64,000 nucleotides of DNA, taken from positions 3,720,001-3,784,000 of the forward strand of contig NZ_LR746496.1 of assembly GCF_902729405.1 (NCBI RefSeq), written 5' to 3'. Shown piece by piece: positions 18,818 through 60,929 of this stretch. The notes beneath the pieces are model-generated. The model was not told the origin of the DNA. It ran no database searches and worked only from the letters and a program-made list of their open reading frames with translations. How positions within the stretch are numbered: position 1 is the first letter of the stretch; each line of letters opens with the position of its first letter. The stretch is from Acididesulfobacillus acetoxydans (GTDB lineage Bacteria; Bacillota; Desulfitobacteriia; Desulfitobacteriales; Desulfitobacteriaceae). The position numbers and the translations under genes were made by a program.

Positions 18818-20248
18818 TCACAAAAGTGACCGGTAAAGTTCGACATAAGCCTTGGCAGACTTGTCCCAACTAAAGTCGCGCCTGAAAGCCTGTTTTTTCA
18901 AGCGGTTCCAAGCCGGCTTATTCTCATAATAGAGGCGCACCGCCCGTTCGACCGTGAACAGGAATTCATGGGCATTGTAGTTGCCGAAGCTGAAGCCGTC
19001 ACCGTCGCCCGTAAATTCATTATACGGCTTGACCGTGTCTTTCAGCCCCCCGGTCTCCCGCACGACAGGCAGGGTTCCGTAGCGCATGGCCATCATTTGG
19101 GCAATGCCGCAAGGTTCAAAACGCGACGGCATGAGCAGAAGGTCACTCCCGGCAAAAATTTTGTGTCCCAATTCATCATTGAACTCACGGCGCAGGGCAA
19201 ACTTCTCAGGGTGTCTCCCGGCTTGGGCCTGCAGTTCCTCCTCGTACTTGCGCTCCCCCCGCCCCAGGATCACCAGCTGTACATCCAGCCGCAAGATTTC
19301 CTCCAGCACCCGGAGGACGAGATCAAGTCCCTTTTGGTCGACAAGACGGCTGACCATCCCCAGCAGGGGCCAGCCCCGGCGCGGCGGCAACCCGAGGGAG
19401 CGCTGCAGATCCTGCTTATTCTCCTCTTTGGCCCGGGGGGAAGCGGAAAACGGGACTGCCAGATACCTATCCGTTTCCGGATTGTAAACCTCGTAGTCAA
19501 TCCCGTTAAGAATGCCTGCCAAAACGTCCCGCCTTTGCCGCAGAACTCCGTCCAAGCGCTCGCCGTAGAAAGGATCCTGTATTTCCTGAGCATAGGTTGG
19601 GCTCACTGTCGTAATCCTGTCGGCATAGAGGAGGCCTGCTTTCATAAAGTTAACCGCGCCATGGAATTCCAACCTATCTTCCCTAAAATATTTCTCGTCC
19701 AGACCCAGCACGTCATCCAGAACTTCATGGGGAAAAATCCCCTGATATTTCAGGTTGTGAATCGTAAACACGGTCTTGACCGAGTAATGCAGCGGTTCTT
19801 TGTTATAAAACTCCTTTAACATGAGGGGAATAAGTGCCGTATGCCAATCGTGGCAGTGAATAATATCCGGCTTAAACTCGGGCAGATGCAAGAGACTTTC
19901 CAAAACCGCCCGAGCGAAAAAAGCGTAACGTTCGGCTTCATCATATTCGCCATAGACATGGGTCCGCTTAAAGTAATACTCATTGTCGATAAAATAATAA
20001 CGAATACCCCGGTAATTCATCTCTTCTAAACCGCAATACTGCCGCCGCCAGGCCACGGGTACGGGAAAATGAGTGATCGGCTTGAACTGGCGGCGAAAAT
20101 GTTCCGGGATTTCACTGTATTTCGGCATGATGACACAAACGTCCGCACCTTGTCCCTGCAGGGCCGCAGGTAAGGAACCTCCGACCTCACCCAAGCCGCC
20201 CGTCTTGATAAAAGGGTCTGCTTCCGCAATAGCAAATACGATTTTCAT
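18818..20248 (-). CDS. glgA: Glycogen synthase
   Basis: 476 residues, normal for bacterial ADP-glucose-dependent GT5 synthases. It has the N-terminal ADP-glucose loop KTGGLGEVGGSLP (15-27), PDIIHCHDWHTALIPLML, and the C-terminal GT-B motif LLLMPSRFEPCGIAQMMAMR containing the catalytic-region Glu. It extends alpha-1,4-glucan from ADP-glucose made by GlgC/GlgD. GAGGGG precedes the ATG. It lies 21 bases downstream of glgD in one operon. Confidence 0.96.
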   Translation of the reverse strand: MKIVFAIAEADPFIKTGGLGEVGGSLPAALQGQGADVCVIMPKYSEIPEHFRRQFKPITHFPVPVAWRRQYCGLEEMNYRGIRYYFIDNEYYFKRTHVYGEYDEAERYAFFARAVLESLLHLPEFKPDIIHCHDWHTALIPLMLKEFYNKEPLHYSVKTVFTIHNLKYQGIFPHEVLDDVLGLDEKYFREDRLEFHGAVNFMKAGLLYADRITTVSPTYAQEIQDPFYGERLDGVLRQRRDVLAGILNGIDYEVYNPETDRYLAVPFSASPRAKEENKQDLQRSLGLPPRRGWPLLGMVSRLVDQKGLDLVLRVLEEILRLDVQLVILGRGERKYEEELQAQAGRHPEKFALRREFNDELGHKIFAGSDLLLMPSRFEPCGIAQMMAMRYGTLPVVRETGGLKDTVKPYNEFTGDGDGFSFGNYNAHEFLFTVERAVRLYYENKPAWNRLKKQAFRRDFSWDKSAKAYVELYRSLL

Positions 20249-20269
20249 ACTACCCCTCTTTTCTTCATC

Positions 20270-21418
20270 TCAGACCAATGAACCCTTGAGCGCGACGAAA
20301 GGAGCATTCCGGCTTCCTTTTAGCACCTTGCCTGCGTGAACCTTGACAAACTTATCGAGAATAACATACTCCAAAAGGGCCCCGGCAGCAATCGAGGATT
20401 TCTGCATAATGACACAGTTCCTGACAACAGCCCCGGGTTCAACGATCACACCCCGGGACAGAACCGAATTATACACCTCCCCTTCGATGGTGCACCCGCT
20501 GGAAATCAAGGAGTTGGCGACTTTGGCCCGAGCCCCGTGCTTGGTGGGAGGATTGTCCACGATTTTGGTGTGAATCCGGTTCTGACCGGTCAGGACCTCT
20601 TTGCGGACGTCCGGGTTTAGCAGTTCCATACTCCGTGCCAAATAATCCTCGACGGAATTAATGGTACCGAAGTACCCCGTAAAAGGAAAAGCAAAAACCC
20701 TCAGCCTGCCAAGCCCCGCTTCAATCGCCGTCAGCAGGTCCGGGATTTCCGGCCCCTCCTCCGCAATCATCTCCAGAAGCAGCCGGCGCCGGATGATCAG
20801 CATGTCGATGAAGTAAGCCTCGCTCGGTCGCGCCGGCGAAGCCTCCTCCCCCAACGACGCGTCCTCTCCCTGCGAAGCCTCCTGCCGCAAAGCGATGACC
20901 CCGCCGTCGGACGCCAGCACAAGGCTATCCCTTTCTCCCCTCTGAAAGACATCAGGGCCCTTCTTAACAATCAAAGTGATATCCGCCCGCTGTTTTTCCT
21001 GAAAAGCCAAGGCCTCCCGGTAATCCATATTGAAAATATGATTGCACCCGCTGATAATCACGTTTTCCGCAAAATCTTTTTGCAGATACTCCACATTGAG
21101 CCGCAGGTCTTTCAGCCGGAACGTCCCGCCACCGTCCGGCAACTCCGGCATTGCTCCGGGTAAGATGAACAAACCGCCGGCTTTGCGATCGAGAAACCAA
21201 TCTTTACCCGCTCCCAAATGGTCGAGCATGGCTCTATTGTGGGGGGGAGTCACCAACCCGATCGTTCGCAGGCCGGAATTGACCATGCTGGAGAGGGCGA
21301 AATCTAACAAGCGATAGCGCCCGGCAAAAGGCAGGGCTGCCATGGACCGTTGAAAAGTCAACCCCTGCAGAATATCCGAACCGTCATTCCCGAACAGGAG
21401 ACCTATAACACTCGACAT
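20270..21418 (-). CDS. glgD: GlgD, second (regulatory) subunit of ADP-glucose pyrophosphorylase
   Basis: About 382 residues. The nucleotidyltransferase fold is recognisable (FAGRYRLLDFALSSMVNSGL, VIISGCNHIFNMDYREAL), but the N-terminal loop reads LLFGNDGSDILQGLT instead of the catalytic GGRGxRL motif, as in GlgD subunits of Firmicutes. These are catalytically weak and modulate GlgC. A left-handed beta-helix follows at the C terminus. A short Glu/Ala/Ser-rich insert (QGEDASLGEEASPARPS) sits near residue 185. Start chosen at MSSVIGLLFG with GGATGGTGG upstream; a 12-codon extension is possible. Confidence 0.93.
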   Translation of the reverse strand: MSSVIGLLFGNDGSDILQGLTFQRSMAALPFAGRYRLLDFALSSMVNSGLRTIGLVTPPHNRAMLDHLGAGKDWFLDRKAGGLFILPGAMPELPDGGGTFRLKDLRLNVEYLQKDFAENVIISGCNHIFNMDYREALAFQEKQRADITLIVKKGPDVFQRGERDSLVLASDGGVIALRQEASQGEDASLGEEASPARPSEAYFIDMLIIRRRLLLEMIAEEGPEIPDLLTAIEAGLGRLRVFAFPFTGYFGTINSVEDYLARSMELLNPDVRKEVLTGQNRIHTKIVDNPPTKHGARAKVANSLISSGCTIEGEVYNSVLSRGVIVEPGAVVRNCVIMQKSSIAAGALLEYVILDKFVKVHAGKVLKGSRNAPFVALKGSLV

Positions 21419-21532
21419 CCACCATCCCTGGTTTCCATGACGCAGAGCGGCCACAATAACCGCAACGTTACCTCTTTTTCCTGCCGACTAAACAGGAGGC
21501 AGCCACACAGGACTTAACCGCCGGCACGAAAC

Positions 21533-21692
21533 TCCCGCCTCTCACCGCCCCAGGGGAGACGATACCCCGCACCCTCGGCGCGGGCCCCCGTCTCTCACCG
21601 CTCCGGGGGAGACGATACCCCGCACCCTCGGCACGGGCCCCCGCCTCTCACCACCCCGGGGGCGAGACCCCGTACCCTCGGCGCGGGCTCCT
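21533..21692. repeat. 53-bp tandem repeat, three copies
   Basis: CTCACCGCCCC and its variants recur at 21541, 21594 and 21647, giving two exact 53-bp periods; each unit also contains ACCCTCGGC(G/A)CGGGC. It fills the glgC-glgD intergenic gap, on the 5' side of glgD, and does not continue either reading frame. Confidence 0.85.
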
Positions 21693-21849
21693 TGCCTATC
21701 GTCACCCCGCGCGGCCGAGGCCTGCCGTGACCCCGGCGGACAGTCCGGACTGCCCGGAAACCAGGCTTTTCACTCCCCTCGCCTTAAAGCTCTGAAAACC
21801 TTTTTCCGACGGAACCCCTGCCAACATACGCGCAAAACAGCCACCCACC

Positions 21850-23040
21850 CTAGCGAGCCGCGTAAAAATTTTCCCCTGCCGGGACCACCGACCCCTTTTC
21901 CAAAACGGTGTGATCCCCAATAACGGTAATTCCCGCCGGGTGTGCGGCGGAAGGTGCTTCCAGCCCGACGGAACAATGGCTTCGGATCTTTGCCCCTTCC
22001 CCGACGATCGCCTTCTTGATTAAAGACTGACGATGAACCCGCGCGTGCGGCAGCAGGATAGAATCCAAAACCACTGCCCCTTCCCCGACATAAGCGCCAG
22101 GCGCAAGAATGGAGTGGCGCACCTGACCCAAGACGACACAGCCGTTGCTGACCAGACTGTCCTCTATCTGCGCGGAGAGTCCCACGTACTGAGGAGGCAA
22201 AATATCTTCATTGGAAAAAATCCTTTGGGCCGGGTCGAAAAGATCGAGCCCGCTCTCGCCGTTAATTAGCTCCATATTAGCGTTGTAATAGCTTTCTATC
22301 GTGCCGACATCGCGCCAATACCCCTTAAACTTATAGGCAAACACTCTTTTGCCCAGTTCGATCTGCCCGGGAAGCACGTTCTTGCCGAAATCATTGTCGG
22401 AATGAAGATCGTGAGCATCCGCCAGCAGAGCTTGTCTCAGCACCGGCCAGTTAAAAATGTAGATCCCCATTGACGCCAGATTACTCTCCGGCCTGGGCAC
22501 TTTCTCGGTGAATTTGGTAATCCGGCCCTCCCCGTTGACACTTACGGTGCCGAAACGGGAGACTTCGTCCCAGGGGACTTCTATCGTCGAGATGGTAATG
22601 TCCGACCCCTTCTCTTTATGAAAGTCCAGCATAGACAGGTAATTCATTTTATAAATATGGTCGCCGGAAATTATGAGCACGTATTGCGGAGAATAGAAAT
22701 CGATAAAATCGAGATTCTGAAAAACGGCGTTAGCCGTCCCGTTGTACCAGTTTCCCTCGTTTTCACCCACAAAAGGCGGCAGGATGTGCACGCCCCCGTG
22801 GGGATTGTCCAAATCCCAAGCCGCACCGAGTCCGATGTACATGTTGAGCAAGAATGGTTTATATTGCGTGAGGACCCCCACAGTATTTATGTTTGAATTT
22901 GCACAATTACTCAAACTAAAATCAATAATGCGGTATTTACCGCAAAATGAAACCGCAGGTTTAGCAATGTTGCGGGTGAGGGCGCCTAAGCGGCTGCCCC
23001 TTCCTCCCGCCAACAGCATAGCAATACATTCTTGGTACAT
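21850..23040 (-). CDS. glgC: Glucose-1-phosphate adenylyltransferase, catalytic subunit
   Basis: 396 residues. [16 protein letters not shown] is the intact nucleotide-binding loop, [15 protein letters not shown] the allosteric and substrate region, WYNGTANAV and [10 protein letters not shown] the catalytic and metal-binding segments, and FTEKVPRP the glucose-1-phosphate-binding Lys region. A C-terminal beta-helix follows. It makes ADP-glucose, the committed step of glycogen synthesis. The gene follows glgP by 39 bases and precedes glgD across a 430-base gap holding a tandem repeat. Confidence 0.97.
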
Positions 23041-23079
23041 CCGCTTTACCCTTTCTCTTCACAACCCCATCTGTTCGGT

Positions 23080-25500
23080 TTAGCAGACTCGTGGGATTTT
23101 CCAAATCTGCTCCGCATATTCCTGAATTGTCCGGTCACTGGAAAAAATACCCGCTTCGGCAATGTTAACCAGAGACATCTTCTGCCACTGTTCCTTATCC
23201 GCATAACAGGCCTGTAACCTCTGATAAGTCTCCAGGTAAGAATCGAAATCCTTCAAGACAAAAAACTCATCATTGTAAAGCAGGAGCGAATCAAAAATCA
23301 CGCGGAACTCTTCGCCGGCCGTTTCAAAAAATCCGTTGACCAGCTGGTCAACACAGAGTTTAAGATCGGGACTGGTATAATACTGGTCTAAAGACTTATA
23401 TCCCCCCCTTCGTATGTAATCCAGAACTTCCCGGGCTCTGAGCCCAAAAATAAACATATTCTCGTCGCCCACCGCCTCTTGAATCTCCACGTTGGCCCCG
23501 TCCAGCGTCCCGATCGTAACCGCCCCGTTCAGCATGAATTTCATGTTTCCCGTACCCGAAGCTTCTTTACTGGCGGTGGAAATCTGTTCACTGACATCGG
23601 CCGCCGGATAGATCAACTCCCCGAGGGTGACATTGAAATTTTCCAAGAAGACGACTTTCAGTTTATCCTTGGCGCCGGCATCTTTGTTGATTTTGGCCGC
23701 CAAAGTGTTAATGAGTTTAATCACGGTCTTGGCATAATGGTATCCCGGCGCCGCCTTTCCGGCAAAAATGAAAGTGTGGGATCCCTCCACCGCACCCGGA
23801 TCCCTCTGCAGCCGGTTGTATAACTCCATGATCTTCAAAAGATTGAGCAGCTGCCGTTTATAGGCGTGAATCCTCTTGACCTGAACATCGAAGAGGGATA
23901 ACGGATCGAGTACGATTCCCTGGGTTTCCCGCACCCTCTCCGCCAGGCGGCATTTGTTAAGATACTTAACCCGGGCCAGCTTCTCCAGGAAACTTCTGTC
24001 ATCCCGCACGGAGAGCAGTTTGTGCAGTTCCTCGGCATTTTTCTTCCAGCCGGGCCCGATCGCCTCCGTGATCAACCCGGACAAGTCGGAATTTGCCGCC
24101 AAAAGAAACCGCCGGTGGTTCACCCCGTTGGTCTTATTATTGAATTTATAGCCAAATATCCGGTAATAATCCTTAAAAACCTCATTTTTCAAAATCTCCG
24201 TATGCAGGGCGGCTACCCCGTTCACAGAAGAAGAGCCGATCACAGCCAGGTTAGCCATCGAGATCTGGCCGTCTTTAATAATCTGGGTGCGCCGAACGAG
24301 GTCCCCGTCCCCCGGGTAAATCCTAGCCGTTCGCTCTTTAAATCGGCGGTCGATTTCCTCCACGATCATATAAATCCGGGGCAGAAGCCCGCGGAAAAGG
24401 TCAATGGGCCACTTCTCCATCGCTTCGGGCATGATCGTATGGTTCGTAAAGGACATGCTGTTCACAGTGATATTCCAGGCTTGATCCCAGCCCAGACCTT
24501 CTTCATCAATCAAAATGCGCATAAGCTCGGGAATGCAGAGGACGGGGTGCGTATCATTGATATGTACCGCCACCCAGCGCGGAAAATCCGCCAGAGCGCG
24601 GTTGCGCTTTTTATAGCTCCTGATGATGGAACCCAGTCCGGCGGCAACAAAGAAATACTCCTGTTTCAGTCTCAGTTCCCGGCCGGAACGGCTGCTGTCA
24701 TCGGGATACAGAATATAAGATATCGCTTCCACCTCGGACTTCAGACTGACGGCCTGTTCAAAATCGCCGCGGTTAAAAGAATCCAAATCCAGCTCATTGG
24801 ACAACGGCTCGGCGCTCCACAGGCGCAGGTTATTGATATTCACGGAGTTGTCATAGCTCATGATCGGGACATCATAGGGCACCGCCAGCACCGGTTCAAA
24901 GTCCTCATGATAAAACATCCATTTACCTTCTGCGTTTTCCACCCGCACATTACCCTTGAACTTAACCACGACGCTCTTGTCGAGCTTGGGAGTTTCCCAG
25001 GGATAGCCGTTTTTCAGCCAGTTGTCGGCCACCTCGGTCTGGAAACCGTTCCTGATCTTCTGTTCAAACAGCCCATATTTAAACCTTATGCCATTGCCGT
25101 GTCCGGATATGCCCCAGAAAGCCATCGAATCCAGAAAACAGGCCGCCAACCTGCCCAGCCCGCCGTTTCCCAGACCCGGATCCGCTTCCTGGCGCAGCAA
25201 CTCGTCCAGGTTAATCCCTAGATCTTGCAAGCCTTCCCGCACGATCTCCTCGATCCCCATATTCACTAAATAATAGTGCAAGAGTTTACCGATCAGGAAC
25301 TCCATGGAAAAGTAGTACACTTCTTTGCTCCGGGCCGGACAATTCCGGGTCAAGGCCCGGTAGGAACCCATTTTCTCCTTGAGCAAAATCACCAAAGTCT
25401 TGTATTTATCCCAGGGACTGCTTTCCTCAAGAATAATTCCTTCCGTCTCACTGATTTTGGTCAAGTAGGCCTGCTTAAAACTCTCTTTATCAGCGAACAT
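23080..25500 (-). CDS. glgP: Glycogen/maltodextrin phosphorylase
   Basis: 806 residues, normal for GT35. The pyridoxal-phosphate site is EASGTGNMKFMLNGAVTIGT, with the Lys forming the Schiff base. Other family blocks: GLGNGGLGRLAACFLDSMA near residue 110, and HINDTHPVLCIPELMR. It releases glucose-1-phosphate from non-reducing ends. GGGAGG precedes the ATG, which overlaps the end of glgB to within two bases, suggesting translational coupling. Confidence 0.97.
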   Translation of the reverse strand: MFADKESFKQAYLTKISETEGIILEESSPWDKYKTLVILLKEKMGSYRALTRNCPARSKEVYYFSMEFLIGKLLHYYLVNMGIEEIVREGLQDLGINLDELLRQEADPGLGNGGLGRLAACFLDSMAFWGISGHGNGIRFKYGLFEQKIRNGFQTEVADNWLKNGYPWETPKLDKSVVVKFKGNVRVENAEGKWMFYHEDFEPVLAVPYDVPIMSYDNSVNINNLRLWSAEPLSNELDLDSFNRGDFEQAVSLKSEVEAISYILYPDDSSRSGRELRLKQEYFFVAAGLGSIIRSYKKRNRALADFPRWVAVHINDTHPVLCIPELMRILIDEEGLGWDQAWNITVNSMSFTNHTIMPEAMEKWPIDLFRGLLPRIYMIVEEIDRRFKERTARIYPGDGDLVRRTQIIKDGQISMANLAVIGSSSVNGVAALHTEILKNEVFKDYYRIFGYKFNNKTNGVNHRRFLLAANSDLSGLITEAIGPGWKKNAEELHKLLSVRDDRSFLEKLARVKYLNKCRLAERVRETQGIVLDPLSLFDVQVKRIHAYKRQLLNLLKIMELYNRLQRDPGAVEGSHTFIFAGKAAPGYHYAKTVIKLINTLAAKINKDAGAKDKLKVVFLENFNVTLGELIYPAADVSEQISTASKEASGTGNMKFMLNGAVTIGTLDGANVEIQEAVGDENMFIFGLRAREVLDYIRRGGYKSLDQYYTSPDLKLCVDQLVNGFFETAGEEFRVIFDSLLLYNDEFFVLKDFDSYLETYQRLQACYADKEQWQKMSLVNIAEAGIFSSDRTIQEYAEQIWKIPRVC

Positions 25501-25501
25501 G

Positions 25502-27406
25502 CTAGACCTCCCGTCTCAATTTGTACGCGGACTGCGGCTTCAATATAACGGTTGCTAAAGGAGGAAGCTTAATTCTTAAAGAGTAAGCCTGCCCCTGCCA
25601 GGGAACACGCTCGGCGACCAGCGGCGCGGGGTTAGTAATATTCAGACCGCCGAAAGCCTCGCGATCAGAATTAAAGATCTCGGAGTATACCTTACGCTCA
25701 GGCACCCCGATGCGGAAGTCCGGGTAGGAGACGGGGCGAAAATTGCTGACGACGACTAGGAAATTGGCGGGATCCCTGGCCGAGCGCCGGAACACCAGGA
25801 TACTTTGCCCCCGATTATCGGCATCTGTCCACTGGAAGCCCGCCCAGTCACTGTCATTTTCCCAGAGCGCTTTTTCCCGACGGTAGAGTTCATTCACGCT
25901 CTTGACAAACTCCCGGTACTTCCTGTGCATGTCGTAAGCCAAGAGGAACCAGTCCAGTTCCCCCGCATAGCGCCACTCAATAAACTGGGCAAACTCCCCG
26001 CCCATGAACATCAGTTTCTTGCCCGGGTGTGTGATGAGATAGGTTTGCAAATTGCGCAGGCCGGCAAATTTCCGCCCGTAATCTCCCGGCATCTTGTCGA
26101 TGAGCGATTTCTTGCCATGCACCACCTCGTCGTGCGAAAGCGCCAGGATGAAGTTCTCCGAAAAAGCGTAAGTGAGGGAAAAGGTCAGAAGCGTGTGTTG
26201 GTTTTGGCGTTGGTCAAAATCCAGTTGCATATATCTTAATATGTCATTCATCCAGCCCATGTTCCATTTGAAATTAAAGCCCAGGCCCCCGGCATAGGTC
26301 GGCGCCGATACGAGCGGCCAATCCGTCGCTTCTTCGGCAATCATGAGCACGCCCGGATGGTCGCGAAAAACAACCTGATTGAGTTTGCGCATAAAAGCGA
26401 CAGCCTCAAGATTTTCCCTGCCCCCATGAATATTGCGCTTCCAGACCTGCCCCTCTTTACCGTAGTCCAAATAGAGCATGCTGCTCACCCCGTCCACCCG
26501 CAGGCCGTCCACATGGTAATTCTCCAGCCAGAAAAGCGCGTTAGAGATGAGAAAGCTCCAGACCTCGGTCTGGGCAAAATTAAAATTGTAGGTTCCCCAT
26601 TGACCGTGTTCCTCTTTTTCGTAAACCGCTGCCCCGTTCAGCCTGCCCAAGCCATGGGCGTCTTTGCAGAAATGCCCGGGAACCCAATCCAGGATGACCC
26701 CGATCCCGGCTTGGTGGCAGCGATCGACGAAAGACATGAACCCCTTCGGATCCCCGTAGCGGCTGGTGACGGAATAATACCCCGTCACCTGATAACCCCA
26801 GGAACCGTCATAAGGGTGCTCCATAATTGGCATGAGCTCAATGTGTGTGTAACCCAAGTCGAGCACATAAGGCAGGAGTTCGCCGGCAAATTCCTCCCAG
26901 GAATAAAAATCCCCGTCTTTCTTGCGCCGCCAGGAACCCAGATGGACTTCGTAGATCGAAAGGGGTTTGTCCTGCTGCCGGCCTTTTTCCCGGTCCTTAA
27001 GCCACTTTCCATCCCGCCAGGGATACCCTTCCAGAGAATAGACGAGCGACGCCGTCAAAGGCCGCCGTTCGCTGTAAAACGCGTAAGGATCAGATTTCAG
27101 AAACACTTCACCCGACCGGCTCCGAATCGCATACTTGTATCTTTGCCCCTGCAGGTCCCCCGGCACCAAGGTCGTCCAGACGCCCGTCTCACCGGTCTGG
27201 CTCAGGGGGTTCCGGACGGCATCCCAGGCATTGAAATCCCCCACCACGGAAACTCCCGCCACCTCCGGAACCCAGAGCGCGAAGTGAGTCCCCTCGTACC
27301 CGTCTTGCTCGATCCGGTGCGCACCGAACTGGGTATAGCTCTTATAGAGTTCGCCCCGGTTAAATAAGTAAATTTCCTCCGGGCTCAAAAACGGCGGGCT
27401 ATCCAT
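25502..27406 (-). CDS. glgB: 1,4-alpha-glucan branching enzyme
   Basis: About 634 residues, GH13_9. An N-terminal CBM48 (HFALWVPEVAGVSVVGDFNA) is followed by the barrel with GVILDWVPGHFCKD, GLRVDGVSSMLYLDYG (nucleophile Asp), LMIAEEATDWP (Glu) and LALSHDEVVHGKKSL. It creates alpha-1,6 branches. GGAGG lies five bases before the ATG at 27406; two ATG/TTG codons further upstream lack a site. It is the first gene of the glgB-glgP-glgC-glgD-glgA-GH13 series. Confidence 0.96.
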   Translation of the reverse strand: MDSPPFLSPEEIYLFNRGELYKSYTQFGAHRIEQDGYEGTHFALWVPEVAGVSVVGDFNAWDAVRNPLSQTGETGVWTTLVPGDLQGQRYKYAIRSRSGEVFLKSDPYAFYSERRPLTASLVYSLEGYPWRDGKWLKDREKGRQQDKPLSIYEVHLGSWRRKKDGDFYSWEEFAGELLPYVLDLGYTHIELMPIMEHPYDGSWGYQVTGYYSVTSRYGDPKGFMSFVDRCHQAGIGVILDWVPGHFCKDAHGLGRLNGAAVYEKEEHGQWGTYNFNFAQTEVWSFLISNALFWLENYHVDGLRVDGVSSMLYLDYGKEGQVWKRNIHGGRENLEAVAFMRKLNQVVFRDHPGVLMIAEEATDWPLVSAPTYAGGLGFNFKWNMGWMNDILRYMQLDFDQRQNQHTLLTFSLTYAFSENFILALSHDEVVHGKKSLIDKMPGDYGRKFAGLRNLQTYLITHPGKKLMFMGGEFAQFIEWRYAGELDWFLLAYDMHRKYREFVKSVNELYRREKALWENDSDWAGFQWTDADNRGQSILVFRRSARDPANFLVVVSNFRPVSYPDFRIGVPERKVYSEIFNSDREAFGGLNITNPAPLVAERVPWQGQAYSLRIKLPPLATVILKPQSAYKLRREV

Positions 27407-27603
27407 AGCAACCTCCATCTCGCCGCTATCGCGACGATACACAGACGTCTCTGCTCTTGCGCTCCTTGTTTGGCTTTCTCGGGGCCTTGTCCCAGATAGT
27501 ATCCCCTTCGCCCACCTGCTCCTGCGTCAGTTCCTTCCCTTACAGTCGAATTTTCTAGGGTTGAACTTTCTATGGTTGCATTCTCTATAGCTGTATTCTC
27601 GCC

Positions 27604-27693
27604 GGGTATGTTCTCATCGGGTGTGTTCTTATCGGGTGTGTTCTTATCGGGTATGTTCTTATCGGGTGTGTTCTTATCGGGTATGTTCTCGTA
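27604..27693. repeat. 15-bp tandem repeat, six copies
   Basis: The unit GGGTGTGTTCTTATC (variants with A for G or C for T) starts at 27604, 27619, 27634, 27649, 27664 and 27679. More diverged copies reach back to about 27545. It lies upstream of glgB. Being a multiple of three, it yields open frames on both strands (plus strand FLSGV-type, minus strand PDKNT-type pentapeptides), but no start site supports a gene. Confidence 0.85.
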
Positions 27694-27779
27694 TTCCCCT
27701 GGTTGTATTCTCTGTATTCTATCTCTGAAGCGTTTCTCCTCTTTGCGAAAAGAATCTTTACACTGTCTTTACCGGAATC

Positions 27780-28437
27780 CCGAATCTCCCCCTGGCTAAA
27801 GCCAGGCTACGGTCAAGGGGTTCTAAGAACCTATGATTGACTGCGTTTTGATCGGCTCTCGCCTAAAGGCTGCCGCGCCGGACTAAAGCCAGGGGAACGC
27901 GCTTAGCCTCTTGGTCAGAGAATGTTGTATCAGAGTCTGAGACTGAGAATCCTGTCGTTACGGCTCTGTCTTGAAATTATTCTTATTACAATTATGAAAC
28001 TGCTATTACTTATTGTCAAGAGGGCTCAACCTTTTTGCCGCTGCGCCACCAAGAAAGTTTGCTTGGCACCGTATTCGCCGCAGGCTTTTCCTCCTTGGTT
28101 GAAGGGTTCAAGTAAGTTGGATTTACGCAAGGTCGTGGTGGATGGTGTGAAGGACGCCTCACAGCTCGAAGGCCTGTCGGGCCTGGGACCAAGCCTTGCG
28201 GCGAAGGCAGCTGAGTCAAATGTTTCTCTCAATGCGAAGTACTGATAAAATGATTTAAGGTAAGAAGCCTTCCAGACTTCTTACCTCGTGGGACCGCAAA
28301 CCGGCCGTTGCCGCACCGCGGCGCCAGGCGCGAAACCTACTGATGCCAGACAGATACTAAATCTCCCCCGGCTACAGCCAGGGCCATGCGGCCGGGCTTA
28401 TTGGTCAGGTCACGCCCGCCGCCGGCGGCGGCCTGTG
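27780..28437. other. Degenerate mobile-element-like region
   Basis: Three stretches resemble the hairpin CCCCTGGCTAAAGCCAGGGG of IS200/IS605-type ends (27788-27812, 27868-27893, 28362-28385). AGCCTCTTGGTCA (27907-27919) also occurs inverted near 13950. A plus-strand frame to 28245 ends in KVVVDGVKDASQLEGLSGLG, which may be a transposase tail but is not convincing. The stem AGGTAAGAAG/CTTCTTACCT (28258-28286) could terminate the PduL-GNAT gene. Confidence 0.35.
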
Positions 28438-29679
28438 CTAAAGGATCCGGCTTAGGGTCTGAAGAGCCAGTTCCATAGTGGCCGTATTCAATCTGGCCTC
28501 TGCCGTCTCCGGTTTGAACATGAGGAGGATATTTTCACCCAACTTAATTTGGTCCGAGGGATAAAAAGAGGTGTCCACGGGAATGGCCCCCAGGTTCAAG
28601 AAGAAATGTTTGCGGTCGTCTAAGTGTTCTTTATTTAAACGGACTTCAAAGAGGACTCCCTCGATCTCAGGGTGATTCTTTTCCAAAATGGCAATCACTT
28701 TGTTAAAGAGGAAACTCCCGATCCCGCGATCCTGATATTCCGGAATGATGCCCAGGTGCTCAAAGTAGGCTATTTTGGTCCTCGGCATCCAGTAGAAACT
28801 CGCGATGCCAAAGACCCGCCCGCCTTCGACCGCCGTGAAAAGGTAATAGCGATTCGGCTCAACGCGCTCGGGCGCCAGCAGCTTCTCCTCCACATCCCGC
28901 CCGATGGACTCGGGGTATTCAAAAACCGTATGTAAGAGGTGGATCGCTTCCTGGACATACGGATCATCGGGCTTTTTCCCTTGGATAAACTTCACATTCT
29001 CGCGGCTGACGTCCAAGGTGTTTCCCCACTTGTCCTTGATGACGAATTCCTTGTGCCGGATCATGGCCAAATCACCGGTATCGACAAAAGCCGCGTTAGC
29101 CTCATCCGTGTCAATATGAAATTCAGTCATCCCCTTCTCCACCACCCTGACTTTGACATCATAGTAGCAGACTTTTTTCTCTCCTTTGATGAGTACCACC
29201 ACTTCGTCTCCCTGCGCCAACTCCAGCTTCTCCGCCTCTTTGGCCAAAAGATGAATATGCGCCTTGGCAATGATGCAGCCCTGATTCAGTACCACCACAC
29301 CTTTGGGACCGATCAGCACCGCCCCCGGCGTCCCTTCCACATCACCGGAATGCCGCAGGGGAGCATCGATACCTAAGACATAGGTGTCCGTGCGGGCCAA
29401 TTCCACCTGCGTCTTGGCCCGGGCCGGGCCGATAATGCGAACCTGCTGCAAAACACCCTTTGACCCGACCACATTCACCGTTTCCTTGGCGGCAAATTCT
29501 CCGGCCTGCCCGAGCTCCCTGAGCAGGGTCAGACCATGCCCCGGACCGAAAAGAGCCTCGATATGTTCCGGAGTCAGATGGACGTGGGCCCGGGAAACCC
29601 CGACCCTGACCAGCCAACGGGTATCCCTCTTGAAATCCGCTTTGTTAACATCGAGACTTGAATCGAAATTAGCTGCCAT
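28438..29679 (-). CDS. PduL-type phosphate acyltransferase fused to a GNAT N-acetyltransferase
   Basis: 413 residues. Residues about 22-235 are a PduL phosphotransacylase (RVGVSRAHVHLTPEHIEALF; DAPLRHSGDV; GCIIAKAHIHL), including the paired His motifs that bind the metal sites. PduL interconverts acyl-CoA and acyl phosphate. Residues about 250-395 are a GNAT domain (AYFEHLGIIPEYQDRGIGSF, motif A Q-x-x-G-I-G). It lacks a microcompartment-targeting N-terminal peptide and has no shell genes nearby, so it is probably cytosolic. GAGGTGAGC precedes the ATG. Both halves appear intact. The GNAT substrate is unknown; see finding. Confidence 0.88.
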   Translation of the reverse strand: MAANFDSSLDVNKADFKRDTRWLVRVGVSRAHVHLTPEHIEALFGPGHGLTLLRELGQAGEFAAKETVNVVGSKGVLQQVRIIGPARAKTQVELARTDTYVLGIDAPLRHSGDVEGTPGAVLIGPKGVVVLNQGCIIAKAHIHLLAKEAEKLELAQGDEVVVLIKGEKKVCYYDVKVRVVEKGMTEFHIDTDEANAAFVDTGDLAMIRHKEFVIKDKWGNTLDVSRENVKFIQGKKPDDPYVQEAIHLLHTVFEYPESIGRDVEEKLLAPERVEPNRYYLFTAVEGGRVFGIASFYWMPRTKIAYFEHLGIIPEYQDRGIGSFLFNKVIAILEKNHPEIEGVLFEVRLNKEHLDDRKHFFLNLGAIPVDTSFYPSDQIKLGENILLMFKPETAEARLNTATMELALQTLSRIL

Positions 29680-30008
29680 TCAGCTCACCTCTTTCTGCCT
29701 AATGAACTGCTCATCCTGCCTTATCATAACAGGCTGCGACCTCAGTTTCAAACGGGACACAGGGGCCTGACCCGGATCCCTGGCCCCCGGCCGGAAAGGG
29801 GCAGCCGGCTTTTTTCTGTCCCCCGCTCCGGCCTACGACACACTGACACAAAAAAACAGCGAGATGCCCGACCGGCACCCGCCGTTTTTCCTTTCCCCGT
29901 ACCGAATTGGGGTCACCCCTATGGAAGGGCCCTCTTTTCCAGCCGTTAGGTTTCTTCCCTTCTGTGTACCCTTTGCTGCCACTTTAAAGCCCCCGGCCGG
30001 CGGCTCCG
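29680..30008. other. Intergenic, no gene seen
   Basis: GC-rich spacer between two minus-strand genes. CCGGC...GCCGG followed by T6 near 29790-29816 is a weak plus-strand terminator shape; no plus-strand gene precedes it. Confidence 0.4.
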
Positions 30009-31490
30009 CTATTTTGCCGTCCCGAAGCGGCCCAGGTCTCTTTCGGATTTGCTTGCTAAACCCCCGGTCAGCAAACTGACCGCCGCTAAAACCACTAAAT
30101 TGACGATCATGGCGACGATCCCCACATTCAGGTCTTTAACAGCCTGAGGCAGCGCCGGAAAGAGTGAGCCCACACTGGAATTCGTCACCGTGATGTAGGT
30201 CACCGTGAGGACGCCGGCTAAGATCCCGGCAAAAGCTCCGAATTTCGTTACAAAATTATTCTTAAGGAGACTGAAGATGAAAGCGGGAAAAATCTGAGTA
30301 ACCAAGCTGTAACCCGCCAGAAGGAGCACCACAATCGCGGCTCCGCTGTTAAAAGTGAAGTAAACCGCTACCAAAGCCACCACCGGCACCAGCAATCGAG
30401 CAATTTTCGCCACCTGCTCTTCGGAAGTCGAGGGAGCAAACACTTGATAGATGTTCTTGGCGACGATTGTGGAAGACGCCATGAGCAGCATAGAGCCGGG
30501 CACCAGAGCCGTCAGAATCCCGGCCGCCCCAATCAAGCCGACAAACCAGGGGGCAAAGGTCATCTTGGCCAGCCTGAGCAGCGAGAGATCCCCGTTGGCC
30601 AGTTTAGGAATCTGCAGTACAGCCGCGAACCCGGCAAAAAAGACGAAGAGCAGGACCAACTGGTAGAGGGGCAGAACGATGGCATTTTTGCGGAAGACCC
30701 GCTCGTTTTTGGCCGCGTAGGAGGAGGCGAAAGAATGGGGCCACATGTAAAAGCCTAGGGCCGTCAGCACCACCGTGGATATGAACCAGGATACGCTCAG
30801 GCCCTTGGCAGGCAGGGTGAGAAAGCCCGGTTTGGCTTGGGCAATCGCGGAAAACATATTCTGATAACCCCCGTAATAATGGAAAGGCAGGTAGATACCC
30901 AGGAAGACCACGATCAACAAAATCATGCTGTCTTTGAGCACCGCAGTCCAGGCCGAGCCGTGGATGCCGGAGATCATCACATAGATCGTAACGACAATCA
31001 CGCCGATCCAGACGGCCACCGTAGGGGAAATGGAGCCGTAGGAAACTTCGGACACAATACTTCCCAAGCCCTTCAACTGCAAGACGAGATAAGGCACCAT
31101 GGCGATAACCCCGACCACGGCGACCAGCAACCCCAAAACGGGACTATTATATTTATGAACAAAGAAATCCGACTGGGACATCAGGTTGTTCTTCTTCGCA
31201 TAGCGCCAGACCGCCGGCAGCATCCAATAAGACATGATGTAAGCCAAAGCTCCGTAGCACAGAATATAGAAGGTCGGTCCGCCTTTGCCGTAGGCCCAGC
31301 CGCTGCCACCCAGAAAAGTGAAGGTCGTATAGATCTCTCCGGCCATTAACAAAAATACCAATAGACTGCCAAAGCCGCGTCCCCCAACGGTCCATTGCTC
31401 CAGATTCATTTTCCGTCCTTGTCTGGCCCGAATCCCCAAATACAACGAGATGAGCAGAAAGGCGGCTATCTCCAGCAGCGCGAAGCTCAT
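30009..31490 (-). CDS. Sodium:solute symporter (SSS family), probably for a monocarboxylate
   Basis: 493 residues and about 13 transmembrane helices. WTVGGRGFGSLLVFLLMAGE, followed by the YTTFTFLGGSGWAYGKGG segment and later ASTIVAKNIYQVFAP, fits the SSS branch that includes MctP and pantothenate-type permeases. It overlaps the small upstream DUF3311 gene by four bases (ATGA), the two-gene arrangement typical of this branch. Transport of a short organic acid by sodium symport is inferred. Confidence 0.9.
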   Translation of the reverse strand: MSFALLEIAAFLLISLYLGIRARQGRKMNLEQWTVGGRGFGSLLVFLLMAGEIYTTFTFLGGSGWAYGKGGPTFYILCYGALAYIMSYWMLPAVWRYAKKNNLMSQSDFFVHKYNSPVLGLLVAVVGVIAMVPYLVLQLKGLGSIVSEVSYGSISPTVAVWIGVIVVTIYVMISGIHGSAWTAVLKDSMILLIVVFLGIYLPFHYYGGYQNMFSAIAQAKPGFLTLPAKGLSVSWFISTVVLTALGFYMWPHSFASSYAAKNERVFRKNAIVLPLYQLVLLFVFFAGFAAVLQIPKLANGDLSLLRLAKMTFAPWFVGLIGAAGILTALVPGSMLLMASSTIVAKNIYQVFAPSTSEEQVAKIARLLVPVVALVAVYFTFNSGAAIVVLLLAGYSLVTQIFPAFIFSLLKNNFVTKFGAFAGILAGVLTVTYITVTNSSVGSLFPALPQAVKDLNVGIVAMIVNLVVLAAVSLLTGGLASKSERDLGRFGTAK

Positions 31491-31687
31491 TCTGCCTCAC
31501 CCCCCTTGTTGATCGGATCAAGCTTATAGATAATTCCCATAATAACAGATGTAACTACAACACACATGACGATCCAAAATAGGATGAAAGGAAGGCCTAA
31601 TACATAAGGTGTAACGCGGTTGACAAACGGTATCCCGACCAGCATAGCCAAAAAAGGCAATAGCGCCAAAAGGCGGAACATTTTCAT
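31487..31687 (-). CDS. DUF3311 small membrane protein, symporter partner
   Basis: 66 residues, two hydrophobic segments (LLALLPFLAMLVGIPFVN and a long second helix) with a short polar tail. DUF3311 proteins are encoded directly before SSS symporters and are thought to be accessory subunits. GAGGAGG lies nine bases before the ATG, and the stop overlaps the symporter start, implying coupled translation. Confidence 0.88.
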   Translation of the reverse strand: MKMFRLLALLPFLAMLVGIPFVNRVTPYVLGLPFILFWIVMCVVVTSVIMGIIYKLDPINKGGEAE

Positions 31688-31857
31688 GCCTTGTATCCTC
31701 CTCTTCCAATGTTCTCTAGCTTAGCCTGCGTGCGCATGACAAACTCTTTCTCTCCGGCCGTCATCCCCCTCCGGCGCCCCCTCTTCGTCAGTCCCTCGCA
31801 ACACTCCATCCAGCCCTTCTTATCAGTCCTTCGGAACGTGGACGCCTCTTACTGATG

Positions 31858-31881
31858 CAAAACGACAGGAAGCGTCGTTTA
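31858..31881 (-). terminator. Terminator of the M20 amidohydrolase gene
   Basis: Minus strand AACGAC-GCTTCCT-GTCGTTTTG: a six-base stem with a short T-run just after the stop codon. Confidence 0.5.
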
Positions 31882-31886
31882 CCCAA

Positions 31887-33224
31887 TTAAAGCGGAGAAT
31901 TCAGTAAAGCGAAGGTGGCATGAAGAAAAATCTTGATTCCGTTGGCCAGGGCGCTCTCATCAATGATAAAACGGGCGTGGTGATGCGGGTAGACGTATCC
32001 TTTGGCCCGGCTGCCGCCGCCGAGGAAGAAGAAGGCGCCCGGGGCCTTCTGCAAATAAGCGGAGAAGTCTTCGCCTCCCATGTTCGGCCGCACATACTCC
32101 AGCGCTGCCTCGCCCATAACCGCGCGCACGCTCTTTTCCAGGACACGGACAACGCGCTCATCGTTGATCACCGGTCTGTACCCCTTGATAATATTGAACT
32201 CGTAAGTCGCACCATGCGCTTCCGTAATACCTTTAACCACTCGCTCCATCAAACGCGGAACTTCCTCGCGCACCTTGGGATCCAGCGTGCGGATCGTACC
32301 CTCGATCTTAGCGCTCCCCGCAATGACATTTTCCTTGACTCCCCCGCTGAATTGGCCGACCGTAACGACCACGCTATCCAAGGGATCGATATTGCGGGCT
32401 GTGACATGCTGCAAATTGACGACCACCTCCGCACCGATCACTATAGCGTCGACCGTCTGCTGGGGCATGGCCCCATGTCCCCCTTGGCCATGAATCACGA
32501 TGGTAAACGTGTCAGGCGAAGCCATCATCGGGCCGTAAGCCAAGCCCACTTTACCCGCTTCCAGCGGCGCCCAGATGTGTCCGCCTATAATCGCGTCCAC
32601 CCCGTCCATCACACCGGCCTCCACCAGTTCCTCGGCCCCCCCGGGCGGAAACAGTTCCTCGGCGTGCTGAAAGATGAAACGCACCTCCCCCGCAATCTCA
32701 TCCTGCAATCCGGACAAGATCTTCGCGGTTCCCAGCAGCATAGCCGTATGGGTGTCATGCCCACAGGCATGCATCACGCCGGGATTCCCGGACACATAGG
32801 GAAAGTCGTTCTCTTCTTGGATCGGTAAAGCATCAATATCCGCCCGAATGGCAACCGTTTTGCCGGGCCTTTTACCCTTCAGGCGCGCCATGACGCTGGT
32901 TTTCGCCGGCCGGCTCAGCTCCAGATGCCCGAAAGACGACAGAGTGTCATAGAGAAACTGCGCGGTTTTTTCCTCATGGTAAGACAATTCCGGGTTCTGG
33001 TGCAAATGCCTCCTCCAAGCTATGACCTCGTCCATCGCCGAGTCTGCCAGGGTCTTCAGTAGTTCCTCTTCCATCTCTTCCGTGAACTCCTTTTTCTTTT
33101 CCGTGAATCCCTCTTCTTTTTCCGTGAACTCCTCTTCCTTTCCTGTGAACGCCTTTTTCTTTTCCGTGAATCCCTCTTCCTTTTCTGTGAACGCCCCTTG
33201 CTTCTCCTTAAACTCCTTTTTCAC
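31887..33224 (-). CDS. M20-family amidohydrolase with a heptad-repeat N terminus
   Basis: The catalytic part (about 52-445) is an M20/aminoacylase-type metal-dependent amidohydrolase: AIRADIDALPIQEENDFPY, HACGHDTHTAMLLG (metal His/Asp), HAEELFPPGGAEELVEAG (catalytic Glu) and PNMGGEDFSAYLQ. It likely removes acyl groups from amino acids or opens cyclic amides. Residues 8-50 are six copies of a seven-residue unit ending FT (EKEEGFT, EKKKAFT and variants), encoded by 21-bp repeats. Translation could begin at GTG 33224, which has a poor site, or at ATG 33074, preceded by AAAGGAG and GGAAGAG, giving a normal 395-residue enzyme. The repeat would then be leader sequence. Confidence 0.88.
   Translation of the reverse strand: MKKEFKEKQGAFTEKEEGFTEKKKAFTGKEEEFTEKEEGFTEKKKEFTEEMEEELLKTLADSAMDEVIAWRRHLHQNPELSYHEEKTAQFLYDTLSSFGHLELSRPAKTSVMARLKGKRPGKTVAIRADIDALPIQEENDFPYVSGNPGVMHACGHDTHTAMLLGTAKILSGLQDEIAGEVRFIFQHAEELFPPGGAEELVEAGVMDGVDAIIGGHIWAPLEAGKVGLAYGPMMASPDTFTIVIHGQGGHGAMPQQTVDAIVIGAEVVVNLQHVTARNIDPLDSVVVTVGQFSGGVKENVIAGSAKIEGTIRTLDPKVREEVPRLMERVVKGITEAHGATYEFNIIKGYRPVINDERVVRVLEKSVRAVMGEAALEYVRPNMGGEDFSAYLQKAPGAFFFLGGGSRAKGYVYPHHHARFIIDESALANGIKIFLHATFALLNSPL
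33079..33205. repeat. 21-bp tandem repeat, six copies
   Basis: The unit TCCGTGAACTCCTTTTTCTTT and variants is repeated in frame at the 5' end of the M20 gene. On the coding strand each unit carries a purine-rich AAGGAG- or GGAAGAG-like stretch resembling a ribosome-binding site. Confidence 0.8.
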
Positions 33225-33383
33225 TCTTCACGAAAATCCGGAAACGCAAAGGTCGCATCGTTCACCAATCTTTCACCTCCCTCCTTCTTTTCATCAGGCT
33301 TGTCTTACGGTCCATTTACGGCCATGTCCCTATATCCTTGCAACTATTATATAATAGCGGATTCGCTTTGAACAGATGAGAGT

Positions 33384-33408
33384 GAAAAAAAAAGCCCTCC
33401 TGGGCTTA
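33384..33408 (-). terminator. Terminator of the HTH regulator gene
   Basis: Minus strand AAGCCC-AGGA-GGGCTT followed by nine T, about 50 bases after the stop. Confidence 0.85.
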
Positions 33409-33458
33409 AACAAGCAAGCATCTTAATTCACCGAGCTAACGGTCAAGCCGCCCGGACA

Positions 33459-34718
33459 TCAACCTGAACTGTCGCCGAAGTTCACCCTGTAGATTCGCCG
33501 CGGCCGGCCTCGGGGGTGGGGATTGCTTTCGCCGACCACTTCGGCATACCCTGCCGCCTCCAAGGCCAGCAAAAGCCGACGCGCGCTGCGGGGTTGAACC
33601 CTTAGATGCTGGGCCAAGTCATGGGCATTTATCTCCCTATGCCCGATTTTTTTCAACACGGAATCGAGCTTGCTTAAAGTAGAAACACTGAGGCCGGAGT
33701 CATGGCTGGTCTGTTGCAAGGTCTCCGGGGCACAGGAATAAGCAACCTGCTCCGGGTGTCCCAAAGGTCCGACAATTGTATTGTCATCGAAAAAGGCCAT
33801 CCAGCTTCCCTTCCCCTGCCCATGCGCGTGCAGCAAAGCTTGCCCGGCATGCGTTTCGGCCTCATAAGCACTGGTTCCCGTCCCGATCCCGCAAGTAATG
33901 GCACCCGGGGCGATTTTCAGGTCCTCAAGATCCGGAACAAAGTGAAAGTCCCCGGTAATATCCTCCAACAGTTTTCTGGTGGTGAATATCACATAACGTC
34001 CCGGCCCCGCCTGTTTAAGCGAGCCGCGAACTTTCCTGGCATAACGCAGGAGTTTCTCCGTCACTTGCAGTTCCAGCTTGTAAAGTTCGTCTGTGACAAA
34101 CTTGTTTTTGATTAGTCCCAGAAAAGTATCGACCTCGATCATCTGAACGGCGATCTGTGCTTCCCGAAAGTGCAAGGCTTCCTTGGCCCGCAAAATGAGG
34201 TTAAGCACCGATTCCACGCTGGCCACGGTCGGCAAAACCCGAAAAGCCGGTACTCCCCGGCGCTGAAGTTCCAAGAAGGCCGAACGCAGACAGGTGACCG
34301 CGCCTTCCGTCCGCCCCCCCCGGTAAAGTGCTTCATGATAGTCACTCAGTTCCTTGACCGAAATCACGCCCGGATAATACTTAACATGGACCGGCTTTGC
34401 TTGAATGTTGGCCTCGGCAAAAGTCCGTTCCAACACACTCGGCCTGAACGTATCGTAGCTGAGACGTTCCAGATTCCACTTCCGCTCCAGGGCAATCTGA
34501 AGCAGCGTCCGGTAAAGACTGGACCCTTCGTATGTCACATAAAACATGGGCTTGGTCACCCCGCCCCAGGCTTTGGCGATGGCATAGGGCACCTGCCCGG
34601 AAAAAAGCCACATGTCCGCCTCGTTAACACGGGATTCCAGCTTGGCGACGATTTCTTCCTCTCTCAAGTAAAAAATCGGCACCAGTTCAAATTCTTTATA
34701 CCCCCTGGCAATCGCCAC
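33459..34718 (-). CDS. Probable transcriptional regulator with C-terminal winged helix; start uncertain
   Basis: 419 residues from GTG 34718. The C-terminal 70 residues form a helix-turn-helix (INAHDLAQHLRVQPRSARRL; PRGRPRRIYRV). The middle (about 190-345) has a cyclase/GGDEF-like rhythm (VDTFLGLI...GIGTGTSAYEAETHAGQAL) without a GGDEF signature. The N terminus resembles a small-molecule or receiver-like sensor. The conserved-looking frame continues upstream of the GTG (RLGILGADDTLELI) to an in-frame TAA at 34782-34784, with only ATT and CTG as possible starts. It sits between the M20 amidohydrolase and the GntP cluster and may control one of them. The family is not named with confidence. Confidence 0.65.
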   Translation of the reverse strand: MAIARGYKEFELVPIFYLREEEIVAKLESRVNEADMWLFSGQVPYAIAKAWGGVTKPMFYVTYEGSSLYRTLLQIALERKWNLERLSYDTFRPSVLERTFAEANIQAKPVHVKYYPGVISVKELSDYHEALYRGGRTEGAVTCLRSAFLELQRRGVPAFRVLPTVASVESVLNLILRAKEALHFREAQIAVQMIEVDTFLGLIKNKFVTDELYKLELQVTEKLLRYARKVRGSLKQAGPGRYVIFTTRKLLEDITGDFHFVPDLEDLKIAPGAITCGIGTGTSAYEAETHAGQALLHAHGQGKGSWMAFFDDNTIVGPLGHPEQVAYSCAPETLQQTSHDSGLSVSTLSKLDSVLKKIGHREINAHDLAQHLRVQPRSARRLLLALEAAGYAEVVGESNPHPRGRPRRIYRVNFGDSSG

Positions 34719-34993
34719 AATCAGCTCCAGCGTGTCGTCCGCGCCCAGTATCCCAAGTCTAATGGCAGCCAGCCGCCTTTCTTAAAGCGTCGTCGGAAAG
34801 CTCCGCCCGCCCATCGCTCATCCTTTATTCATATAATAACAGATCCTGCTCCTAGGCAAAACACCGCCTTCCGGGAATTTGAACCCAGCCGGCGTCTCAT
34901 TTTTCTCCTCCGGCCAACGTCGATTTCTGTTCCTCGAAAGGTCCGGTGAACCACCCTTATGGAAACCCATTACGTCCGTTTAGCCGAAACAGC

Positions 34994-35023
34994 GAAAAAG
35001 CAGATGCTTAACACACCTGCTGT
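34994..35023 (-). terminator. Terminator downstream of the GntP permease gene
   Basis: Minus strand AGCAGGTG...CATCTGCT followed by TTTT. The rest of 34785-35101 holds no gene. Confidence 0.65.
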
Positions 35024-35101
35024 TTCCGTCTGTGCTGGGTCCATCTGTTTTTTCCGACTCATCGACTGGATCAATCGGTAAACTTAGCCCCGGAAAGGAT
35101 T

Positions 35102-36496
35102 CTAGACAAAATGGAGAATACTTTGCAAACCGATGAGCAGGAAGACCGTTCCCGCTTTCATAAGGGTAATAGCAAAGATATCTTTATAAGATTGTTTATG
35201 CGTGAGCCCCGAAATCCCCAAGAGCGTAATGACCGCTCCATTATGCGGCAGGGTGTCAAAACCGCCGGAAGCCATGGCAGCTACCCTGTGCAGCAGTTCC
35301 GGGCTAATCCCTGTCCGGTGGGCCCAAGCCAAATACTCTTTGCCAAAAGTCGCCAAAGCAATGCTCAAACCGCCCGAAGCCGAACCCGTTACGCCCGCCA
35401 GAGTGTTGACCGTCACCGCTTCTGAAAGCAGCGGGCTGCCGCCGTGATTAATCCCCATCAGGGCATGAGCGATCGTCTGAAAGCCCGGCAGAGTCTTGAT
35501 GACATTGCCGTATCCGACTTCTGAAGCGGTATTCAGAACGGCTAACAAGGAGCCGATCGCGCCGGCGTTGATCGCCGTGGCCACATGTCCCTTGATCCGG
35601 CGGGGATTAATAGCCATCGCCAGAATGATCCCGACCAGCAAAGCGATGATCAGGGCCCAGTTGTTCATGACGCCGATAACTCCGCCTTTAGGAATGCTGT
35701 AAGGCGCTTTGGTCACCCAGGAGCTGATGTCCCAATGCGGAAAAACCATCGTTTGCAAAATCAGCGTCATGGCCAGCACCGCGACCAGAGGCAGGGCGGA
35801 TAACCAGGGGTTGGGCAGACTCGTGTCCTCAACCATCTCCGGCTCCTGTTTATGATTCGTTCCGTATCCTTCGCCTTTGGCCTGAGCCGTACGCTTGCGC
35901 CACTCCAGGTAAAATATCCCCGCTACCAAAATGATCACCGCTCCCAGGGTGCCGAAAACCGGAGCCGCGTACAAATTCGTATTAAAAAACTGCATAGGAA
36001 TCGAGTTCTGGATCTGGGGAGTTCCCGGCAGAGCATCCATAGTAAAAGTAAAGGCGCCCAGGGCGATGCTCGCGGGAATGAGGCGTTTGGGGATATCCGC
36101 TTCTTTAAAAATCGAGGCGGCAAAGGGATAGACCGCAAAGGCCACCACGAACAGGCTGACACCGCCATAGGTCAAAATCGCTGCCGACAGTACCACGGCT
36201 AGGATGGCCTGGCGTTTGCCCAGTTTTTGTACAATCACCTTGGCAATCGCTTTCGCCGCCCCCGACTCCTCCATCGCTTTGCCGAAGACGGCTCCGAGGA
36301 GGAAGAATGGGAAATATACTTTAATATAGTCCGCTAAATTCGGCAAAAAGATTTGAGTATACGTAGGCATGATCGCCATGCCGGAGAAAATGGCCGCCAG
36401 AAGTGCGAATACCGGGGCAAAAAATATCACGGAAAAACCCCTGTAGGCCATAAACATCAAGAGTCCAAGGCTAAGCAAAATGCCCAGCACTGCCAT
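35102..36496 (-). CDS. GntP-family proton symporter, probably for a hydroxy/keto acid
   Basis: 464 residues and about 12 hydrophobic helices. Family signatures include VLAVVLSAAILTYGGVSLFV, DALPGTPQIQNSIP, SGGLSIAL and ASGGFDTLPHNGAVITLL. GntP homologues carry gluconate and other hydroxy acids; members encoded with CoA-transferase, SDR and thiolase genes are often 3-hydroxybutyrate or short-chain acid permeases, which is inferred here. GGAGGTG precedes the ATG. It is the last gene of the cluster, followed by a terminator. Confidence 0.88.
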   Translation of the reverse strand: MAVLGILLSLGLLMFMAYRGFSVIFFAPVFALLAAIFSGMAIMPTYTQIFLPNLADYIKVYFPFFLLGAVFGKAMEESGAAKAIAKVIVQKLGKRQAILAVVLSAAILTYGGVSLFVVAFAVYPFAASIFKEADIPKRLIPASIALGAFTFTMDALPGTPQIQNSIPMQFFNTNLYAAPVFGTLGAVIILVAGIFYLEWRKRTAQAKGEGYGTNHKQEPEMVEDTSLPNPWLSALPLVAVLAMTLILQTMVFPHWDISSWVTKAPYSIPKGGVIGVMNNWALIIALLVGIILAMAINPRRIKGHVATAINAGAIGSLLAVLNTASEVGYGNVIKTLPGFQTIAHALMGINHGGSPLLSEAVTVNTLAGVTGSASGGLSIALATFGKEYLAWAHRTGISPELLHRVAAMASGGFDTLPHNGAVITLLGISGLTHKQSYKDIFAITLMKAGTVFLLIGLQSILHFV

Positions 36497-59531: not shown

Positions 59532-59542
59532 CTCTCCCACCC

Positions 59543-60908: not shown

Positions 60909-60929
60909 CTTGTTAACCCCTCCCTCTTG

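Follow-up and report, generated by a model that had tools for sequence, protein, structure and literature searches.

A PduL phosphotransacylase fused to a GNAT domain in Acididesulfobacillus acetoxydans and other Bacillota, a candidate acyl-phosphate-fed acyltransferase

Protein acetylation by acetyl phosphate in bacteria is regarded as mostly non-enzymatic, and enzymatic acetylation uses acetyl-CoA. Pat/PatZ of types I and II carry an acyl-CoA-forming enzyme domain and a GNAT domain on one chain; in type I, the metabolic domain is N-terminal and the GNAT is C-terminal. The metabolic domain of types I and II is inactive and is retained as a sensor of acetyl-CoA (PMC8556138). In Bacillus subtilis, acuA, which encodes the GNAT AcuA, adjoins the acetyl-CoA synthetase gene acsA (PMC8556138). 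Fusions of PduL with acetate kinase, proposed to aid channelling, are described by Erbilgin et al. 2016 (PMC4784909). A different PduL fusion, with a Cob_adeno_trans-like domain N-terminal to PduL, was observed in genus g6 of family f1 (Table 1).

We analyzed a stretch of 64,000 nucleotides (the window; positions 3,720,001-3,784,000 of the closed 4.52-Mb genome of A. acetoxydans), in which one gene encodes PduL and GNAT domains on the same chain. A preliminary description, made from the sequence alone, had reported a single 413-residue frame with a full PduL domain, a full GNAT domain, and a Q-x-x-G-x-G loop in the GNAT half. The ORF scan and Pfam searches bore this out, and the loop reads Q316-D-R-G-I-G321. 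The PTAC match scored 222 bits against a cut-off of 25 and ran over model positions 2-174 of 176 (173 covered). The protein aligned with the rPduL structure 5CUO without gaps across residues 23-207 (phmmer E 9.8e-45), and its score for the NCBIfam phosphate propanoyltransferase was over the cut-off. In the GNAT half, Acetyltransf_1 matched residues 261-335 (7.9e-9; 36.3 bits against a cut-off of 20.7), and Acetyltransf_7 matched residues 278-364 with a score at its cut-off. Pfam detected no other domain in the protein besides PTAC and GNAT; an NDP-forming acyl-CoA synthetase-like domain was absent. A structure predicted from a shallow alignment of three sequences only had a mean pLDDT of 40.7.

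Table 1. Positions of the features discussed; those with an L label lie at other loci, the rest in the window.
Feature	Position	Strand	Basis or remark
PduL-GNAT fusion CDS	28438..29679	(-)	413 aa + stop; uninterrupted from ATG
PduL (PTAC, PF06130) domain, residues 26-198	29086..29604	(-)	Pfam 4.5e-66
First metal-binding motif A31-H-V-H34	29578..29589	(-)	H32/H34 = rPduL His48/His50, 25/25
Second metal-binding motif A140-H-I-H143	29251..29262	(-)	H141/H143 = rPduL His157/His159, 25/25
GNAT region, residues 228-413 (Pfam Acetyltransf_1/7 core 261-364)	28441..28998	(-)	Pfam; PDB profile matches all GNATs
GNAT acetyl-CoA phosphate loop Q316-D-R-G-I-G321	28717..28734	(-)	xxGxG form in 25/25 fusions
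Shine-Dalgarno-like GAGGTGAG	29684..29691	(-)	directly ahead of ATG, read from sequence
Promoter-like site TTGAAA-17-TATGAT, extended -10 TG	29723..29751	(-)	upstream of fusion; consensus match only
Terminator-like hairpin, 14 pairs, T-rich tail	28257..28287	(-)	~150 bp past stop; pattern match only
ptb-buk / acetate-CoA ligase-linked stand-alone GNAT loci	L130:4028-11624; L131:9260-12299; L134:7179-10117; L135:2151-5064; L133:7123-9577		
Cob_adeno_trans-PduL fusions	L102:3862-5241; L103:834-2333; L104:4983-6491; L105:3-1274; L106:5732-6766		

The preliminary description had named an assembly error as a threat to the fusion and a search for the domain pair in other genomes as a check. An assembly error was excluded, and the join is genuine, because the same-genus genome L006 (record Peptococcaceae bacterium CEB3) has a 99%-identical copy and many other, independent genomes have full-length fusions. 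The search collected 25 distinct fusion genes of the same architecture from Desulfitobacteriales and at least four further families of Bacillota. Thirteen of the 73 genomes of the order carried the fusion, as did 11 of the 398 genomes sampled from the phylum (families coded f1, f2, f14, f56, f68, and f77) and 7/7 near-complete genomes of the class containing f14 and f56. The scan of named genomes gave two loci only. Viral contigs gave no matches, and plasmids yielded stand-alone PduL only. No split version of the exact PduL and GNAT pair was seen. One branch set the fusions apart from the other sequences both in the PduL-half tree (SH-aLRT 59) and in the GNAT-half tree (bootstrap/SH-aLRT 85/81). 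The trees favour a single origin of the fusion, without strong support.

The genome of the window holds a second fusion, a paralogue at 3,229,822-3,231,021 that is 63% identical. In both genomes of the genus, a PAS-sigma54 activator gene follows this paralogue on the same strand 11-78 bp on (L075:8532-11668 and L077:7450-10575).

The PduL half resembles PduL (PF06130, 5CUO/5CUP) over the whole domain without gaps. In rPduL, His48, His50, and Glu109 are ligands of Zn1, His157, His159, and His204 are ligands of Zn2, and Arg103 is a phosphate contact (PMC4784909). The six ligands and Arg103 (rPduL numbering) were intact in all 25 fusions, the window protein included; the window protein also keeps Gln107, Ser127, Arg194, and Asn211. 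Ser45, Gln74, and Arg97 (rPduL numbering) were conserved in 24/25 fusions. All three were lost in L098, the most divergent fusion, and this copy may differ from the others in function. Residue 61 of the window protein (rPduL position 77) is Glu, as in PduLs of acetyl/propionyl-type compartments.

Unlike PduL, the window protein has a C-terminal GNAT, no obvious encapsulation peptide, Arg in place of Lys70, and Ala in place of Arg in both RHxH motifs, which thus read AHxH. The second of these Arg residues was Ala or Ser in all 25 fusions, whereas 37 of the 41 stand-alone PduLs that could be scored have Arg there (Fisher p ~2e-14, relatedness ignored). It was also missing from 4/41 of the stand-alone proteins; RHxH in both halves is typical of PduL, not strictly defining. 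The first Arg was replaced by Ala or His in 18/25 fusions. Judged by the residues kept, the PduL domain of the fusions is likely to be catalytically competent, though this is not certain because the second RHxH Arg is gone from all of them.

Loss of active-site residues from one half across homologues had been raised as evidence that would count against a working pair. No catalytic residue was lost in either half. When the two copies from the same genus were compared, dN/dS was ~0.014 in the PduL half and ~0.017 in the GNAT half, which indicates strong purifying selection on each. Degeneration of one half was excluded by residue conservation and dN/dS.

In the GNAT half, E307 stands ahead of the phosphate loop in 25/25 fusions, and its position was Glu or Asp in 19/19 rows of a wider GNAT alignment. 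E307 is a possible general base. Comparison of the GNAT half with PDB profiles gave mostly small-molecule enzymes, namely diamine and aminoglycoside acetyltransferases; RimI and NAA30 also matched. Every match was weak (E ~1e-5), including that of the best solved relative, a diamine acetyltransferase, and the matches were confined to the CoA-binding core common to all GNATs.

Stand-alone members of the same GNAT family were found in families f14, f55, f7, and f68. Three were encoded directly before phosphate butyryltransferase and butyrate kinase (ptb-buk), and two directly before acetate-CoA ligase, one of the latter with ptb-buk and 2-oxoacid oxidoreductase-like genes upstream. Others adjoined spoVA-like, cydAB-like, or alanine dehydrogenase genes; the two closest to the fusion branch were beside alanine dehydrogenase and cydAB-like genes. 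The ptb-buk and acetate-CoA ligase contexts indicate that acyl-CoA and acyl-phosphate metabolism is the probable theme of the family. In gene context, the members beside acetate-CoA ligase or ptb-buk are like AcuA, and they are candidates for an AcuA-like regulatory arrangement in an apparently unnamed family; the fused PduL-GNAT differs from AcuA in having no adjacent acs gene. For the function of the fusion, the ptb/acs context is indirect, because these GNATs were 23-26% identical to the window GNAT and separated from it by a long branch.

A stand-alone PduL and a PTA/PTB-family protein were present in 14/14 fusion-bearing genomes checked. Their presence suggested that the fusion is specialised and not needed for bulk exchange of acetyl-CoA and acetyl phosphate, and a role in bulk acetate metabolism was disfavoured. 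The preliminary description had also stated that no microcompartment genes are near. This held for the window and for 23/24 other fusion loci (flanks examined, several contigs being short); the exception was a Desulfosporosinus MAG (L007/L078), with genes for BMC shell proteins and diol dehydratase at a distance of 5 kb from the fusion. A microcompartment enzyme was likewise disfavoured, as BMC homologues were absent from the window and the same 23/24 loci. In the exceptional MAG, the fusion heads a diol-dehydratase microcompartment locus (L078:3649-17548), in which it is followed by genes for a PocR-type kinase, acetate kinase, BMC shell proteins, and diol dehydratase; the locus also holds a stand-alone PduL.

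The preliminary description had proposed that acyl-CoA could be formed and used on a single polypeptide, or that the GNAT could acetylate a partner according to the acyl-phosphate level; the domains and their conservation partly support this interpretation. The reading that we tentatively favour is that the fusion is an acyl-phosphate-fed acyltransferase, probably regulatory and protein-directed. At its di-zinc site, the PduL domain would convert a short-chain acyl phosphate to acyl-CoA and back, the acyl group probably being acetyl or propionyl. The GNAT domain would then move the acyl group from acyl-CoA to an amine; the most likely acceptor is a lysine in a protein that belongs to acyl-CoA or acyl-phosphate metabolism, and the acyl-phosphate level would be read out as acylation of the target. 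Activity of both sites, their coupling, and a protein substrate are inferred. Pat comes closest in function, by analogy at most: its type I form has the same domain order, but its metabolic domain is like NDP-forming acyl-CoA synthetases and is inactive, whereas that of the fusion is an unrelated PduL domain of ~200 residues. The acyl-phosphate-fed acyltransferase is favoured because this PduL domain keeps its catalytic residues. The Arg losses from the RHxH motifs count against it, as they could reduce or alter PduL activity, and the mostly small-molecule enzymes among the PDB profile matches of the GNAT half count against a protein target. In decreasing order of probability, the acyl-phosphate-fed acyltransferase is followed by a sensor, a small-molecule acyltransferase, and mere co-localisation of two activities.

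In the second of these, the PduL domain would bind acyl-CoA, CoA, or acyl phosphate and control the GNAT allosterically, as in Pat/PatZ. This role stays open because Pat, the nearest parallel, pairs an inactive acyl-CoA-forming domain with a GNAT, and it would agree with the loss of the RHxH Arg residues (second, 25/25; first, 18/25) and with the separate PduL and PTA/PTB-family protein in every fusion-bearing genome checked. However, pseudoenzymes usually lose some of their metal ligands and phosphate contacts, whereas the fusions kept all seven residues in every case, and the residue lost in Pat is the catalytic His. We regard a sensor as rather unlikely.

Less probable again is acylation of a small-molecule amine (a polyamine, an amino acid, or similar) with the acyl group supplied via acyl phosphate. 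The diamine and aminoglycoside acetyltransferases at the top of the PDB profile matches fit such a substrate, as does the lack of a conserved protein partner beside the gene; but the matches are weak and reach only the core that all GNATs share, and the related stand-alone GNATs adjoin genes for acyl-CoA and acyl-phosphate enzymes, not amine pathways. It is improbable that the two activities are independent and share a chain merely for, e.g., dosage or PduL dimerisation. PduL is a dimer (PMC4784909), and unrelated PduL fusions exist, with acetate kinase (same source) and with the cobalamin adenosyltransferase domain; yet CoA and acyl-CoA are the currency of both halves, and the join has been retained across distant families with no split pair seen. 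Like the acetate kinase fusions, the PduL-GNAT fusion joins PduL to an enzyme that shares its substrate, with the difference that the GNAT uses acyl-CoA and the kinase uses acyl phosphate.

If the acyl-phosphate-fed acyltransferase is correct, acyl phosphate would drive enzymatic acylation, beyond the known non-enzymatic kind. The fusion would link the acyl-phosphate and acyl-CoA pools on one chain and would give sulfate-reducing and fermenting anaerobes a specific way to regulate acylation through acyl phosphate. It would also add to the reported GNAT architectures one whose metabolic domain seemingly retains its catalytic residues, in contrast to that of Pat. A literature search, with most subscription journals outside its reach, found no published account of a PduL-GNAT fusion, which may convert acyl-phosphate levels into chemical tags on proteins or small molecules by a route not described before. 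A stronger claim, which we consider doubtful, is that the fusion adds a sixth type to the architectures of bacterial GNAT protein acyltransferases: its phosphotransacylase would be active and pass acyl-CoA to the GNAT, and the acyl-phosphate level would directly drive target-specific enzymatic acylation.

In the window, glgB-glgP-glgC-like genes come after the fusion, and genes for a monocarboxylate-type symporter and an amidohydrolase come before it (gene calls in the neighbourhood are longest-ORF picks). The terminator-like hairpin stands between the fusion and the glycogen genes, and the gap to glgB is 1 kb. Together with the promoter-like site, of a kind similarly numerous in the region and in shuffles, these features suggest that the fusion may be transcribed as a single gene. 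No Rfam elements were found at window positions 20000-36000. No neighbour was conserved across the fusion loci, and no target gene was consistently adjacent; at other loci, the neighbours varied and included genes for a BenE transporter, glycyl-tRNA synthetase, NUDIX, an ABC transporter, and a histidine kinase.

Control of glycogen storage by the fusion is highly improbable: glycogen phosphorylase adjoins the fusion in four f14 genomes and lies two genes from it in both genomes of the window's genus, but it occurs in only 7/13 fusion carriers of the order against 46/73 genomes overall, and this comparison and the hairpin ahead of glgB largely refuted a general glycogen role.

Three further observations concern the rest of the window. 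The amidohydrolase ORF (31887-33224) opens with repetitive sequence (EKEEGFTEKKKAF...) and, at 445 aa, is longer than the same-genus copy in L076 (395 aa); its true start may lie further inside. Positions 33459-34718 encode a 419-aa protein without a Pfam or NCBIfam match. At 58203-63998, a run of minus-strand ORFs resembles, by eye, a type III CRISPR Cmr gene set.
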